Assembly (NCBI RefSeq): GCF_028710345.1
Contig: NZ_JAQTUH010000005.1
Location: 124,001-188,000 of the forward strand
DNA length: 64,000 nt
Source: Sulfuricurvum sp.
GTDB lineage: Bacteria > Campylobacterota > Campylobacteria > Campylobacterales > Sulfurimonadaceae
Direction: 5' to 3'
Within the stretch, counting starts at the first letter, position 1; every line of letters begins with the position of its first letter. The position numbers and the translations under genes are program-made. Shown one piece after another: positions 46,201 through 62,161 of the stretch. The notes under the pieces are model-generated. The model was not told the DNA's origin. It worked only from the letters and a program-made list of their open reading frames with translations, and did no database searches.

Positions 46201-46800
46201 TACGTCTCCGGTCATCCGCTCGATAACTTCCGCGAGCAGATCGACGCGATCAACTATACCCTATCATCCGAAGTGGAAAACATCGAGGACGGTTCCACTG
46301 CCATCTTCATCGGTAAAGTCGAAACGATTACTGAAAAAATGTCGAAAAAAGGGTCAGCTTTTGGTCTTGTGAGTCTAATGGATTTCCACGGCAATATTGA
46401 GATGATGCTCTTTAGTGATAAATTAGAGCAATTAAAAGAAATGGATCGAGATGAGCCGATAGCGTTCAAAGTAAAAGTTACTCACACCGAGATGTTCACC
46501 CGCATCAGCGTCACCAAAATCATGACCCTCGCCGAAGCGAAAAAAGAGGCAAAAAAAGTAGAAACCAAAATCGTCGAAAATCTCCCACCTCAAGAGCCGT
46601 TACAACTACGACTCCGCCTCAGCGATAAGCTTGAGATGTTAGAGAAACTCTACACCTTAGTGCGCCGTCATCCTGGACGCCGTGAGATTAAACTCACCAT
46701 CGTCTCGAAACTCGCCGACGTCATCATCGATTCGGCGATACGGGTGGATAACAAGGTGATTGAAGAGTTAAGTGTTTTAGAAGATGTGGATGTGATTTGA
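43246..46800 (+). CDS. dnaE: DNA polymerase III alpha subunit
   Basis: Replicative polymerase catalytic subunit, 1184 residues. The PHP domain opens with THLHLHTEYSLLDGANKI. The polymerase core has the GPGRGSAAGSLVAF block and the catalytic Asp pair in MPDIDMDF (about residue 420). The fingers region includes AGMHAAGVVIS and RPGPMESGM. The C-terminus has a tandem HhH and OB-fold domain (around 990-1070, ending in the TEMFTRISVTKIMTLAEA part). Length is normal for the group. It is followed after 3 bases by a small possible nuclease gene. Confidence 0.97.
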   Translation: MSTIPPFTHLHLHTEYSLLDGANKISALAARVKELGMTSVAMSDHGNMFGAIDFYQQMRKEGIKPIIGMEAYIHNGEDLGDKTIRQRFHVCLFAKNEAGYKNLMYLSSQAYINGFYYYPRINKQLLRENCEGIICTSACLQGEVNWHLNTINERNIKNGAGGYDEAVRVALEYKEIFGDDFYMEIMRHGISDQLFIDEQVIKISQETDIKLIATNDTHYTYAGDAQYHEAFMCIGMNKLYDDPKRMRHSVHEFYIKSPEQMAQLFADIPEALYNTQEIVDKCQLELKLGNPTPPNFKFTTEYALEEGLEIAEDSEYFIHRCRIGLEMRLEHVPEERHTEYRERLEFEMQVINQMKFPGYMLIVWDFVREAKKMGIAVGPGRGSAAGSLVAFSLEITDIDPMKYDLLFERFLNPERVSMPDIDMDFMQARRGEIIDYVVRKYGREQVAQIITFGSLLAKGVIRDVARVLEMPLSQADMMAKLIPDELGITLNGKTKGGKTEDGAFQKEPKIKELVESDANAARVWEFAKKLEGLKRNAGMHAAGVVISNEPLWKKTPIYKPSGEETFVTQYSLNYLEDIDLIKFDFLGLKTLDVIDNAIKLIKKRYDVVVNWHTIDENDPKVYEIIQSGDTIGMFQIESSGMQDLNKRLKPSSFEDLIAVLALYRPGPMESGMLDDFIERKHGRKKIFYPFEEVSFDALKDTLEPTYGMIVYQEQVMQIVQTIGGMSLGGADIVRRAMGKKKLEEMQKYNREFSEGAQKQGLDYQKASELFDLIEKFAGYGFNKSHSAAYAMVTFQTAWLKTYYPQEFMAALLTSEKDNTDKVVKYIDEAKRMKIFLGAPDINHSQLEFSAINKDDQDQILFGLGAIKGVGEAAVESILEARAEGEFKDIQDFINRIEPQKVNKKVIECIIKAGGLDHFGYSRRALLEQVETLVETAKKGSSLKKDAQFSLFGDDEEVTAVELNLKNMEEFDLKTLLDFEKDTLGFYVSGHPLDNFREQIDAINYTLSSEVENIEDGSTAIFIGKVETITEKMSKKGSAFGLVSLMDFHGNIEMMLFSDKLEQLKEMDRDEPIAFKVKVTHTEMFTRISVTKIMTLAEAKKEAKKVETKIVENLPPQEPLQLRLRLSDKLEMLEKLYTLVRRHPGRREIKLTIVSKLADVIIDSAIRVDNKVIEELSVLEDVDVI

Positions 46801-46803
46801 TCC

Positions 46804-47217
46804 ATGAGAGAGCTTGAGAAACTTGAAGCCGAGATTTGCAATCTCGTAGAATTATCACTTTCCGATAAAACGTATTGCGATCAAGTTTCTTTTTTATTAT
46901 CCGAAAAAACCATAGATAAAGCATGGAAACATTTTTTCATCGATATTCGAGATTATACATGCGTTATACACAGTGATGAAATCCGACATATCAAAAATGA
47001 GCACCATGATGATGTCTATCTCATCTGTAAAATTCCCTATTATCTTGAAAAGTTCGTAAAATTGGAACGGAATATTGTATCCGATAAAAAAACGGGCAAA
47101 CCTGTAATATCTTTGATTTTTATCAAACGAAATGAGAATAATAGTGTCAAAATGGTAAAAACAAATCTGAGCAGAGAGAAGATTTTAAGATTAAAAACGC
47201 TTTTTGAAGTGGTGTAG
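46804..47217 (+). CDS. Possible barnase/EndoU-like (PBECR-type) nuclease
   Basis: A 137-residue protein that I assign only tentatively. The block EIRHIKNEHHDDVYLICKIPYYLEKFVKLE, then GKPVISLIFIKRNE and KMVKTN, resembles the phage-associated barnase/EndoU/colicin/RelE-like (PBECR) nucleases, in which a His-rich helix precedes a beta-sheet. AT-rich DNA and position right after dnaE (4 bases) suggest an accessory insertion. A candidate antisense RNA with a strong promoter runs into its 3' end, and its stop codon is inside a hairpin. Toxin function is an inference only. Confidence 0.4.
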   Translation: MRELEKLEAEICNLVELSLSDKTYCDQVSFLLSEKTIDKAWKHFFIDIRDYTCVIHSDEIRHIKNEHHDDVYLICKIPYYLEKFVKLERNIVSDKKTGKPVISLIFIKRNENNSVKMVKTNLSREKILRLKTLFEVV

Positions 47218-47239
47218 CAGACCAAAAACTGCTACGATT
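47214..47239 (+). terminator. Terminator overlapping the stop codon of the 46804 gene
   Basis: GTAGCAG (47214-47220) pairs with CTGCTAC (47229-47235), followed by GATTTTA. The stem begins inside the TAG stop codon of the upstream gene. Confidence 0.5.
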
Positions 47240-47336
47240 TTACGGTTGTTAGCTAGTGCCTAGCCGAAGCTATCCTTTGCCTTACGTCCTAAACGAACTC
47301 CGATGGTCTTTAACGTTGACAGAGGCTATCTGTTGA
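47214..47336 (-). ncRNA. Candidate small RNA, antisense end
   Basis: A perfect sigma70 promoter points leftward (see 47342-47370) into a gene-free region with no minus-strand coding frame. The expected transcript has a UAGC-UUCG-GCUA stem with a cUUCGg tetraloop near 47262-47273, an AGTCAACAGATAGCC...GTCAACG repeat near its 5' end and ends in the GTAGCAG/CTGCTAC hairpin. It runs tail to tail into the possible nuclease gene, so it could act in antisense. No known family recognised. The exact 3' end is uncertain. Confidence 0.45.
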
Positions 47337-47341
47337 CTAAA

Positions 47342-47370
47342 ATTATACGCCTTATTAACGATGATGTCAA
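47342..47370 (-). promoter_or_regulatory. Sigma70 promoter for the candidate small RNA
   Basis: On the minus strand, TTGACA (47370-47365) and TATAAT (47347-47342) are separated by exactly 17 bases, a full consensus match. No minus-strand gene lies downstream within about 500 bases. Confidence 0.65.
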
Positions 47371-47515
47371 TAGTGGTTAATGAGAGTTGAAGAGGTGTAT
47401 GTTATACGTCAAGCATTTCTAAGAAGGTAGGAAAATAGAATTTTCATGAAATTGGGTGAAAAAATACTATTTTAAGCAATACAGCATAAAATAGTCAAAA
47501 TATTAGGATAGTAGA

Positions 47516-49897
47516 ATGAGTAATGTTAAAGTCGATATAAAATTAAGACCCATAAGATTTGTTTTTCTTGTAAAGCCTAATGACAAAAAAAATATTCTTA
47601 AAATCTTTCAAATTAACACTTTTTTATGGGGTGGGAAATTCAATCCTATTATTCCATTTTTTAAACAAGTCCCAAAATGGTGGTCTAAACATGATCATCT
47701 AAAATATAATGCACAACAGATTATAAATGATTATTTGGATTTTTTTGAGCCAGATTTTATTGTCGAGGCAGAAAAAGGACTTGCAGACAATATTGATTTT
47801 GATAAAGATAGAATATTATCATTAGATAATATGTTGCATAAAGATGAATATAGAAGTCTTGATGAATATGGCTTAAATGTAAATGATTTGTATATTCATT
47901 TATATGAAAAAAAATATCAATTTGAAAGAAGACATAAAGTAGACATAGTAAATGTTATATCAAAAGAAAAATCTTTAAAGAATTTTATTTCTTGTACTTT
48001 TGGTTCTTTTCCAGAAGATGAAGACTTTTCTTATCTTGAAAAGAATTACATAGATATTTTTGAACCTGCTAGCATAGAGTTAGATGCTAAATCGCTCTTG
48101 GAACTTTACTCGTCCCAATATTTTGCACCTATAGATATTGGACATACACGAATAGATATAAATTTTTTCGAAAAAATGCCTGAACCTAGACTTTTTATTT
48201 TTGATCTCGAAGAAACTAAAGATTTGATAGATTTTTGGAATCTAAGAATTATTTATCGAGAAGTTATAGCAATACCAAAACAATGGATAAAGGAACTTTC
48301 TCCTTTTTGTAAAGAGTTTATTTTAAAACATCATCGTCCCTCTCCTTGGCAACCAGACTACATGTTGAATTCTACTACTATGTTTTCTCGTTCTATATCA
48401 GATGATGAAGCGAAAAATATCTATAGTCAATATATTCAAATTGATACATTAGGAGCAAACCATATACAACTTTGGTATCCAAATATCAAGCTAGAGCGAT
48501 CTAATCAGATTCATGGATTGCGTCGGCCTATTTTAACTTATCAACAAGACAGTAAAGAAGTTAATTTATTGAATGAAGAAGATAGTCGAATATCTTTTGA
48601 TATATTAGCACCTGACTTCTCAGAAAAATATGGCAATAAAGTTCGTTGGGCAAACGTTATAAATATTGAAGATTGGAGTTCTGAAAATAAAATAACAACC
48701 GTTTTCCCGACTAACTACAGAAATCCAATATTTCCAAAATTTGGAATTTTTAATAAACATTTATTGTCTACTACTGAAGGTTTGATTATCTTCCCTGAAT
48801 ATAAAGACAATAATGAGCATTGGAGATTAGAAAATGGCACAGTTGCTATAAACCAATGGCTAAAAGAATATGATATATCAGCTATAGTCTCGGATGCCGG
48901 AAAAGCTACTCAGCAAATAATAGAAACTATAGGTGGTGTAACTCAGGTTTGGAGCATCGTCAATAAAAATATTATCAAGACACTAGACGAAATGGCTAGA
49001 ACGCCTCTTACAAGAAGTTTTCAAGTAAATAAATTTGAAAACATGATAAACAAAGATATTAAGAAACAAAAATGGATTCTTCCTCGTTCAGAATATTTAG
49101 CCAGTCAAAAAATAGTAGAACTTGGATTAGAAGTAAAATGTTCCAAATGTGATAGTTGGAGCTGGTATACACTCAAAGAACTAGATTATTCTCTTACATG
49201 TAGTCGATGTTTAAAAAAATTTGATTTTCCTATTACAAAACCATCTAAGTCTGAATATTCACGATGGTCATATCGAGTTATAGGACCATTCGCCATACCT
49301 GATTATGCTAGAGGAGGATATGCCACAGCTTTGACAATACATTTTTTTGAAAGAAGTCTTGATAACGCACGTAAACTAAAAATGACTTGGTCGGCAGGAC
49401 AAGAATTAACACTGAAATCAGGTGAAAAAGCCGAAGCTGATTTTATCCTTTGGACTCAAAAACAAGAAATTCTAGAGTTAAATAAAACCACAAATATTGT
49501 ATTTGGCGAAGCCAAAAGTTTTGCACAAGATGCTTTTAAAGATTCAGATATTGAAAAAATGAAATTACTTGCTGAAACATTCCCCAATTCTATACTTGTA
49601 TTTGCTACGATGAAAGATCATGAAGAGTTTTCAAAAGATGAGATTAATCGTCTTAGAAAATTTGCAGAATGGGGTAGAAGATATAACACTAAGAATTATG
49701 AAAGAAGAGCACATATCATGATTTTAACAGGATTAGAACTTTTTATAGAAGATTATGCAGGATTTTCAAGTGTGTGGAAAAATAAAGGTGGTAAGCATCA
49801 GGAGTTAATTTCAGCATATACGGTTAACAATTTAAATAACTTGGAGATCTTAGCGGAGTTAACACAACAAGTTTATTTAGATATGCCATCTTACTAG
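47516..49897 (+). CDS. PD-(D/E)XK-motif protein with zinc ribbon; candidate defence nuclease
   Basis: A 793-residue AT-rich protein of unknown family. A zinc ribbon is visible as CSKCDSW...LTCSRCLKKFD (Cys at about 542, 545, 562, 565). A PD-(D/E)XK-type nuclease core follows: Asp642 in AEADFILW and Glu665-x-Lys667 in IVFGEAKSFA, with a helix and strand after (KMKLLAETFPNSILVFATMK). The N-terminal ~500 residues are not recognised. The design of a large uncharacterised N-terminus plus a nuclease resembles single-gene anti-phage or modification-dependent systems. No methylase is nearby. Function is inferred, not shown. Confidence 0.6.
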   Translation: MSNVKVDIKLRPIRFVFLVKPNDKKNILKIFQINTFLWGGKFNPIIPFFKQVPKWWSKHDHLKYNAQQIINDYLDFFEPDFIVEAEKGLADNIDFDKDRILSLDNMLHKDEYRSLDEYGLNVNDLYIHLYEKKYQFERRHKVDIVNVISKEKSLKNFISCTFGSFPEDEDFSYLEKNYIDIFEPASIELDAKSLLELYSSQYFAPIDIGHTRIDINFFEKMPEPRLFIFDLEETKDLIDFWNLRIIYREVIAIPKQWIKELSPFCKEFILKHHRPSPWQPDYMLNSTTMFSRSISDDEAKNIYSQYIQIDTLGANHIQLWYPNIKLERSNQIHGLRRPILTYQQDSKEVNLLNEEDSRISFDILAPDFSEKYGNKVRWANVINIEDWSSENKITTVFPTNYRNPIFPKFGIFNKHLLSTTEGLIIFPEYKDNNEHWRLENGTVAINQWLKEYDISAIVSDAGKATQQIIETIGGVTQVWSIVNKNIIKTLDEMARTPLTRSFQVNKFENMINKDIKKQKWILPRSEYLASQKIVELGLEVKCSKCDSWSWYTLKELDYSLTCSRCLKKFDFPITKPSKSEYSRWSYRVIGPFAIPDYARGGYATALTIHFFERSLDNARKLKMTWSAGQELTLKSGEKAEADFILWTQKQEILELNKTTNIVFGEAKSFAQDAFKDSDIEKMKLLAETFPNSILVFATMKDHEEFSKDEINRLRKFAEWGRRYNTKNYERRAHIMILTGLELFIEDYAGFSSVWKNKGGKHQELISAYTVNNLNNLEILAELTQQVYLDMPSY

Positions 49898-49926
49898 TAA
49901 ATAATTAAAAAATAGGGGAGTTAAAG

Positions 49927-50001
49927 TGGTGACCCCAAGGGGATTTGAACCCCTATGACCAGAATGAAAATCTGAGATCCTAACCATTAGATGATGGGGC
50001 C
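49927..50001 (-). tRNA. tRNA-Glu (anticodon TTC)
   Basis: On the minus strand the acceptor arms GGCCCCA and TGGGGTC pair (one G-U), discriminator A and an encoded CCA follow. The anticodon arm is CAGA-TTTTCAT-TCTG with anticodon TTC. The T arm AGGGG-TTCAAAT-CCCCT is perfect. Confidence 0.97.
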
Positions 50002-50115
50002 ACTTTAAAAAAGAAAGAAGGAACTATTAATTCCTGAGCCGAAATTATAGTGTCTGTTTGCTGAAAAAAACCTAAATCACGATGAAATTGTCATCGTGAA
50101 AGTAGGGCTGTTTAA

Positions 50116-50664
50116 TTAGTCGTTATAAAATGAGCGTAGTGCGCGAATAATAACGGCGTTTTTAGAGATACTTTCTGCTTTAGCATTGTCATCTACCAAT
50201 TCATAAACATCAAGTGGCAAAGAGATTGAGAAAGTTTTAGTCTCAATTTTTTTACGTTTAGAGATCAATGAAGTGATGTTTTGAAGCATCTCAAGAATTT
50301 TTTTGGTATCAATCGGTTTTTGGATAAAGCTATTTACACCGACTTCGATAGATTCAGAGATTTTTTGAATATCGTTACTTGCAGAGATAACGATAATGAT
50401 TTGTGACGGGTTGATTGAACGGATACGACGAGCAAGTTCAATACCATCAATCTCAGGCATAATAATGTCAACGAAAACGATATCCGGATTCATTTTTTCA
50501 TACATACGAAGTGCTTCTGAACCATTGTATGCTGAAGTTACATCGGCGAAAAAGTTTTTAAATGTAGAGCTCAAAAGATCATTAGCAACCACTTCATCTT
50601 CAACTACCATTGCGGTAAGTTTTTTTGTTTGTTCTGTAAGCTGGATTAAATCAATATTCGACAT
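50116..50664 (-). CDS. Response regulator with a ribbon-helix-helix C-terminus
   Basis: A 182-residue protein. The N-terminal receiver domain (about 15-130) has the acidic pocket VVEDE, phosphoacceptor Asp66 (FVDIIMPEIDG) and Lys116 (IQKPID). The C-terminal 40 residues (TFSISLPLDVYELVDDNAKAES...ALRSFYND, about 144-182) look like a ribbon-helix-helix DNA-binding unit, an unusual output domain for a response regulator. No kinase gene is adjacent. It lies just outside the left dif site of the prophage. Confidence 0.8.
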   Translation of the reverse strand: MSNIDLIQLTEQTKKLTAMVVEDEVVANDLLSSTFKNFFADVTSAYNGSEALRMYEKMNPDIVFVDIIMPEIDGIELARRIRSINPSQIIIVISASNDIQKISESIEVGVNSFIQKPIDTKKILEMLQNITSLISKRKKIETKTFSISLPLDVYELVDDNAKAESISKNAVIIRALRSFYND

Positions 50665-50769
50665 AGGAAACTCCTTAGGTTATTTTGTATGACATGTTAA
50701 AAACTGTCATGGTGTTGGAATCGTGGTATTATATGTAAAAACAGTTATTAACAACTTTAAAAAAAGAGG

Positions 50770-50976
50770 TTAAATTTGTTTAAATTGTTGAAGCCATTCA
50801 ATATTGTCATCATTCACCGTTTCTTGCTGTTTTAAAAGCGATTCAATGATGTGTATTAATGTCTCTTTATCCATAAATTCTAAAAGCGAAGGGTTAATCA
50901 TTGTCGGTTTAACACCATCATATCGATTAAGCATATTTTGTATATCAAGAATTAATTGTTCTTTTGTTGATTCCAT
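50770..50976 (-). CDS. Small hypothetical protein
   Basis: A 68-residue, predicted all-helical acidic protein with no signal peptide (KEQLILDIQNMLNRYDGVKP, KETLIHIIESLLKQQE). The gene has a good AGAAAT/GGAG-type leader on the minus strand. I do not recognise it. It ends about 25 bases before the left dif-like site, so it is probably the last host gene on that side; it could also be a transcribed small regulator gene. Confidence 0.5.
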   Translation of the reverse strand: MESTKEQLILDIQNMLNRYDGVKPTMINPSLLEFMDKETLIHIIESLLKQQETVNDDNIEWLQQFKQI

Positions 50977-51000
50977 TCTATTTCTCCAAAAGTATCATTT

Positions 51001-51028
51001 GGTTAACATAATATAAATTATATTGAAA
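51001..51028 (+). other. attL: XerCD dif-like site
   Basis: Left arm GGTTAACATAA, 6-base spacer TATAAA, right arm TTATATTGAAA: the 11-6-11 architecture of dif, with the ATAA/TTAT inner ends found in E. coli dif. It lies between a host gene and the first prophage gene. Confidence 0.75.
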
Positions 51029-51062
51029 CATTTGATAATATCTTTTCAAAAAAGGATTCGAA

Positions 51063-51389
51063 TTGCTTTCTAAAAAAACTCTTAAGCCTCTCCCCGTTGG
51101 TGGTTTTAACTTCGATGTGCCAATTCCTCGTTACGGTAATAATTCTAAACCCCATCTAAAACCTGCCTATTTGAAGATTAATTTTTATGAACACGAAAAA
51201 ATTCTTATCGATAAAATCCAAAAAAAAGTTATTGCAATTTTTAATGCAAATGATGTTTCTTTCAATGAACAAGAATTCTATCGCATTTTTACATTAAATA
51301 TGGATAACCGCGAATTGTTACAAATCATGTTCAAACTCTACAAAGAGCAAGTTTCTTACTTGTATGGCGGTTTACAAAATGCTTCATAA
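51063..51389 (+). CDS. Prophage protein, first gene after attL
   Basis: A 108-residue soluble, basic protein with a proline-rich start (LPVGGFNFDVPIPRYGNNSKP) and a helical remainder (EHEKILIDKIQKKVIAIFN). The start is a TTG with AAAAAAGGA upstream. No family recognised. It begins about 34 bases after attL, so it is the first gene read when the element is excised and circular, and probably an early gene. It overlaps the HTH gene that follows. Confidence 0.6.
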   Translation: MLSKKTLKPLPVGGFNFDVPIPRYGNNSKPHLKPAYLKINFYEHEKILIDKIQKKVIAIFNANDVSFNEQEFYRIFTLNMDNRELLQIMFKLYKEQVSYLYGGLQNAS

Positions 51390-62127: not shown

Positions 62128-62156
62128 GGTTAACAATAATATAAATTATATTGAAA
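62128..62156 (+). other. attR: XerCD dif-like site
   Basis: Same spacer TATAAA and right arm TTATATTGAAA as attL; left arm GTTAACAATAA, which differs from attL by one inserted base. It ends 5 bases before the host methyltransferase stop codon. Confidence 0.75.
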
Positions 62157-62161
62157 AATAC

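Follow-up and report, generated by a model that had tools for sequence, protein, structure and literature searches.

The gene at 47516–49897 and its surroundings

The window analysed here is a 64,000-nucleotide stretch of a Sulfuricurvum sp. genome. An open reading frame of 793 codons with an ATG start occupies positions 47516–49897 on the + strand, as the first-pass annotation had placed it, and its product was read from the alignment and the AlphaFold2 model described below as a bilobed sensor-like N-terminus followed by a zinc ribbon and a PD-(D/E)XK nuclease. The gene has a GC content of 30.3% (GC3 19.4%) compared to 45.4% for the upstream gene, named as dnaE by eye, which bears out its description as AT-rich.

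The other possible nuclease noted next door corresponds to an open reading frame of 137 residues at 46804–47217, which gave a sub-threshold match to the phage-associated nuclease PBECR3 (27.3 bits against a cut-off of 30, E = 3.6e-6). Matches to this frame were found in 4 of 60 genomes, its own included, with 89% identity in G029 and internal stops in one match. The non-coding gap at 47218–47515 carries a sigma-70-like site matching at 12/12 positions on the − strand (47370–47342) and one matching at 11/12 on the + strand, and gave no match to Rfam. A 33-nt part of the gap recurs in G016 directly behind a PBECR3 relative, hinting that the toxin-like gene and the non-coding element travel together.

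No methylase gene was recognised beside the gene in the window, where a single weak match to TaqI_C (51063–51389, E = 0.0023) lay below the cut-off. An 11-kb phage-like segment bounded by 24-nt direct repeats (96%) at 51008–51031 and 62136–62159 starts approximately 1.1 kb downstream of the gene, in agreement with the reported proximity of a prophage. A peak of the cumulative GC skew falls near 51 kb, and the repeat may therefore be a dif site used by an integrated phage.

The sequence past dnaE was unlike that of all 14 relatives checked, and similarity to the relatives ended at about 49908–49927 in the loci compared. The downstream unit of a tRNA-Glu and a response regulator was kept in 9 of 9 relatives examined, elsewhere in the genome, lying approximately 414 kb from dnaE in G016. 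The gene is therefore part of a variable block flanked on both sides by conserved pieces. Integration at the 3' end of the tRNA-Glu is not claimed, since no tRNA-derived direct repeat was found within 46700–51100. The response regulator, at 50116–50664 on the − strand, is fused to a ribbon-helix-helix-like C-terminus; of 22 relatives searched within the genus, 17 had a copy with 93–98% identity and a further one a copy with 76%, and it adjoins the tRNA-Glu in the nine examined.

Sequence family and predicted structure

Searches with the window protein revealed no significant Pfam family, the best match being a sub-threshold Zn_ribbon_4 (E = 0.092), no NCBIfam or PADLOC (2.0.0) model, no sequence match in the PDB and a best PHROGs match of E = 0.038. 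A tblastn search identified a single relative on a plasmid, Photobacterium damselae pWMD-P3-2, with 40% identity over the full length. The first homologue scans with the single window sequence gave no matches; a two-sequence alignment of the window protein and the plasmid relative later succeeded, giving 34 loci in species genomes and one viral contig. The resulting alignment, A2, contained 31 rows: the window protein, L002, L038 and 28 of the 34 species-genome loci. Left out were L015, a near-copy of L013, four loci cut at contig ends (L020, L022, L035 and L036), and L025, where the match ends at residue 324. The end of the L025 match lies inside its contig, so that L025:10001–11302 is apparently a broken copy.

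The 31 members gave isolated weak matches only in Pfam and two isolated weak matches in PADLOC, in one member each, and the 31-row profile matched the PDB only in the zinc-ribbon region, to eS27 at E 0.5. No paper recognisably describing the family was found in the open-licence literature, which was covered mostly at abstract level. Annotation with Pfam, NCBIfam and PADLOC in their present form misses the family.

The AlphaFold2 model of the window protein had a mean pLDDT of 85.8 and a pTM of 0.85, and ran from two Rossmann-like lobes through a beta-rich part and a helical connector to a zinc ribbon and a PD-(D/E)XK fold. Residues 1–440 modelled alone (pLDDT 85.5, pTM 0.90) also formed two Rossmann-like lobes and the beta-rich part. 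Lobe A comprises residues 1–216 (47516–48163), its limits being a reading of the secondary structure of both models, and contains L37-WGG-40, N43-P44 and P47, while lobe B comprises residues 217–330 (48164–48505) and contains D236, W241-N242 and R244; all of these residues were identical in 31/31 rows. The beta-rich region of residues 331–440 (48506–48835) had a lower pLDDT and is followed by the helical connector, possibly winged-helix-like, of residues 441–522 (48836–49081). The zinc ribbon, C542-x2-C545 ... C562-x2-C565, is encoded at 49139–49210, the nuclease core, residues 582–748, at 49259–49759 and the active-site signature E640-x-D642 ... E665-x-K667 at 49433–49516, all on the + strand.

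Of the 29 invariant columns of alignment A2, the N-terminal lobes account for 14, the nuclease region for 9 and the ribbon for 4, with 2 elsewhere. The ribbon and nuclease signature first picked out from a single sequence were identical in 31/31 rows (C542, C545, C562, C565, E640, D642, E665 and K667), so the signature is not a chance occurrence and the doubt whether the nuclease residues are conserved falls away. The conserved N-terminal residues (L37-WGG, N43-P44, D236, W241-N242, R244) suggest a functional site in that part of the protein also. Values of dN/dS were 0.05–0.20 in six of seven homologue pairs and 0.39 in the seventh, nearly identical pair; the gene is under purifying selection among its relatives. 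A tree built by a quick method grouped the window protein with a Psychrobacter homologue of 58% identity (support 100).

The closest structural match of the C-terminal part of the model was Cdn1 (Z 10.7, rmsd 4.6, 220 aligned), with Card1 (Z 9.2, rmsd 5.5, 194 aligned), VC1899 (Z 9.0, rmsd 4.8, 210 aligned) and Can2 (Z 8.9, rmsd 5.3, 193 aligned) close behind. The model residues aligned to these CARF nucleases were about 443–780, or 404–779 for Can2, a stretch that includes the helical connector; one further Can2 alignment runs from 221 to 782, but with an rmsd of 14.2. Restriction enzymes came next, with N.BspD6I at Z 7.0 and AspBHI at Z 5.8, the latter over 131 residues in the nuclease part. 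Foldseek gave no match at E ≤ 0.001 with either the full model or the N-terminal one, MspJI being ranked third for the full model (E 6.6e-3).

No structure reached Z ≥ 8 against residues 1–440, the best scores being 7.6 (86 residues) and 7.5 (220 residues). Lobe B was Rossmann-like, the highest Z among its generic matches being 7.6 (86 residues), yet many Rossmann proteins gave similar values. Argonaute MID, periplasmic-binding and other Rossmann folds scored alike and no fold is therefore named for this region. A profile comparison of lobe A with lobe B gave no duplication signal. The N-terminal 500 or so residues had been called unrecognised; this holds for Pfam, NCBIfam and PADLOC models, and the fold search of residues 1–440 gave nothing clear beyond a generic Rossmann lobe.

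Distribution, mobility and linkage to defence genes

The titles of the homologues named Gamma-, Beta- and Alphaproteobacteria, Poribacteria, Nitrospirales and Acidobacteria, among others, together with Dadabacteria, Chloroflexi, Dojkabacteria and Patescibacteria, although many are MAGs and their phylum labels may mislead. The gene was present in 1 of 60 relatives and in 1 of 397 genomes of the phylum, in each case the window's own genome, and, within the family of the Citrobacter homologue, in 2 of 198 genomes with the query genome counted. Its absence from 59 of the 60 relatives and 396 of the 397 phylum genomes led to a core or repair function being rejected. The mobile-element records with a homologue were only the one plasmid and the one viral contig; none was found in 50,697 phage records, and the Photobacterium gene had no match at the DNA level in E. 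coli genomes.

Comparison of related loci defined the extent of the common DNA. L002, a conjugative-type plasmid with Tra/Trb genes, and L038, a Mu-like prophage in which transposition, terminase and tail genes were recognised and the homologue lies between the transposition and late genes, have only 2647 bp in common (89%). L008 and L016, set in type I restriction-modification (R-M) and McrBC contexts respectively, have mainly 2591 bp in common at 83%, with two other short matches elsewhere. L011 and L012 belong to different alphaproteobacterial families and have 3486 bp in common (93%). The common DNA is thus confined to the gene and short flanks, and the gene moves as a unit of approximately 2.6 kb between unrelated backgrounds. 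Both alphaproteobacterial loci also contain, upstream of the homologue, an open reading frame of 324–326 residues (L011:4845–5816 and L012:9011–9988), which may be a local partner.

HsdS (PF01420) was found within approximately 10 kb of the gene in 5 of 26 loci from 24 genomes (L008, L010, L018, L028 and L031), and coordinate arithmetic placed N6-methylase matches in the same five loci. Gene counts and genome sizes predicted 0.30 such loci, giving a Poisson P of 1.6e-5, or 0.004 with three related Poribacteria loci taken as one, under a null of uniform position that ignores island clustering and with gene counts merged by hand. The gene order was HsdR-HsdS-gene-HsdM in L028, with 4-base overlaps, HsdM-...-gene-HsdS-HsdR in L018, HsdM-...-gene-HsdS-...-HsdR in L010 and HsdM-...-gene-HsdS in L031. 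In these four loci, which represent two locus types, the gene lies inside a type I R-M operon, separated from its R-M neighbour by 4–12 bp or overlapping it by 4 bases.

Other neighbours included a type III methyltransferase with ResIII (L007), McrBC (L016), HmaB/HmaC (L027), a PDC-S15 candidate (L030) and PDC-S02 with an integrase (L034); this list was picked by eye and is thus a lower bound. Of the 37 loci considered (the window, L002 and L004–L038), at least 10 had a defence-type neighbour. Most loci had no recognised R-M neighbour, and 21 of 26 had no HsdS in the flanks examined. The PADLOC models Specificity_I and MTase_I matched up to 5 of 124 proteins of the near set, among the 25 of 324 families listed; in the far set of 96 proteins there was no Specificity_I among the 25 of 112 families listed, and mad2 (5), MTase_I (2) and other R-M models were present. 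Because the far set also contained R-M models and the family lists were partial, the HsdS statistic was relied on instead.

These loci qualify two descriptions in the first-pass annotation. The gene stands alone, with no methylase recognised beside it, in the window, and it also stands alone in most loci; some homologues, however, lie inside type I R-M operons. The defence context that had been proposed as a check was found, in the form of type I R-M, type III methyltransferase, McrBC and Hma neighbours, and the homologues are not confined to core contexts, since they also occur on a plasmid and in a Mu-like prophage.

Comparison with known systems and proposed function

The best structural matches, Card1, Can2 and Cdn1, are CARF nucleases of type III CRISPR in which, as predicted for the window protein, a Rossmann-like sensor-type domain precedes a PD-(D/E)XK domain with E-x-D...E-x-K; model and alignment place the same fold and signature in the window family. 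The window protein is about twice as long, with an extra lobe, the beta-rich part and the zinc ribbon, and unlike these nucleases its family is not obviously tied to Cas10. A Cas10-palm model had no match in 14 of 25 genomes and only one strong and near-full match (G445, model positions 1–127 of 133), the rest being mostly partial; it also matched the E. coli control, probably through GGDEF domains in our reading. Dependence of the family on Cas10 looks unlikely.

Homology to Card1 at the sequence level was rejected. The Card1 endonuclease family PF09002 was absent from the Pfam matches (E ≤ 0.1) of all 31 members, and hhalign against an 8-sequence Card1 profile gave a probability below 1% for the full length and for slices, which is weak evidence because both profiles are shallow (31 and 8 rows). 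With no profile kinship to Card1-type proteins, the window protein is likened to a sensor-nuclease in its working and is not called a CARF nuclease. Shedu (SduA) is described as one protein with a variable sensor region and a PD-(D/E)XK nuclease (PMC12839542), an arrangement like that of the window protein, where the sensing would be the putative part; the PADLOC SduA model and the Pfam DUF4263/Shedu domain had no match in 31/31 members at E ≤ 0.1.

It is reasonably probable that the window gene belongs to a so far undescribed family of mobile defence nucleases, each encoded by one gene and gated by its N-terminal lobes. The invariant nuclease residues, the gene-sized mobility, the HsdS enrichment and the insertions into R-M operons give good support, by inference, to a defence nuclease. 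Sensor-plus-nuclease defence proteins are a known kind of system, of which this would be a new form. The two Rossmann-like lobes would take up a small molecule or some component of the phage, and binding would rearrange the beta-rich region and the helical connector. The zinc ribbon would hold the nucleic acid, and the C-terminal metal-dependent nuclease would cut invading DNA, or the nucleic acid of the cell in an abortive response. Published titles present Can2 as a dual-specificity nuclease (PMC7969007) and Cdn1 as a ribonuclease (PMC12825302), which makes RNA a conceivable target. The possible anti-phage effector of the first-pass annotation is in keeping with the defence neighbours, the carriage by plasmid and prophage and the invariant nuclease residues, but sits less easily with the many loci in which no R-M neighbour was recognised.

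A type IV modification-dependent restriction enzyme, in line with the other suggestion of the first-pass annotation, whose N-terminal lobes would read modified bases while the PD-(D/E)XK domain cuts nearby with no second messenger, is an unlikely alternative that shares several traits with the family: a single R-M-linked gene with no methylase of its own, one homologue beside McrBC, and a C-terminal PD-(D/E)XK domain as in MspJI and AspBHI, both of which appeared in the structural searches, and in other modification-dependent endonucleases. However, none of the 31 members contains a known modified-base-reading Pfam domain, the N-terminal folds are Rossmann-like lobes and not a known base-flipping module, and some copies lie within type I R-M operons, which goes beyond mere adjacency.

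The operon insertions, with their short gaps or overlaps, and the HmaB/HmaC neighbour would also suit a guard or backup effector, silent with an intact R-M complex and active once a phage inhibits R-M. Embedded precedents are described in PrrC, an anticodon nuclease accessory to type I R-M (PMC12707154), and in the auxiliary or backup nucleases of BREX-related systems (PMC12839542). The window family is, unlike PrrC, of the PD-(D/E)XK type and usually has no nearby R-M genes, the window copy included, and such a role is very doubtful. A combined form, in which a bilobed Rossmann sensor of nucleotides or phage small molecules gates the zinc-ribbon PD-(D/E)XK nuclease without Cas10 or an encoded synthase, and in which this self-contained protein is repeatedly recruited to type I R-M operons as a guard, is decidedly unlikely. 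Most improbable is a role outside defence, as an enzyme that processes DNA or as selfish plasmid and prophage cargo, which fits the carriage by L002 and L038 but not the HsdS enrichment, the R-M operon insertions, the swaps between defence contexts or the neighbourhoods of the homologues, where no conserved replication or transfer partner was seen.

The gated defence nuclease, if correct, would carry a new sensor module in a family that crosses many phyla and is missed by present annotation. Being a gene-sized mobile unit, it should be easy to clone and test, and because it has entered type I R-M operons repeatedly, how cells back up inhibited restriction becomes a directly testable question. 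The stretch downstream of dnaE varies across the genus; in relatives of the window genome (L071, L078 and L080) it contains, as judged by eye, AAA-like genes along with others that may act in defence or as toxins, and it is a candidate defence hotspot.
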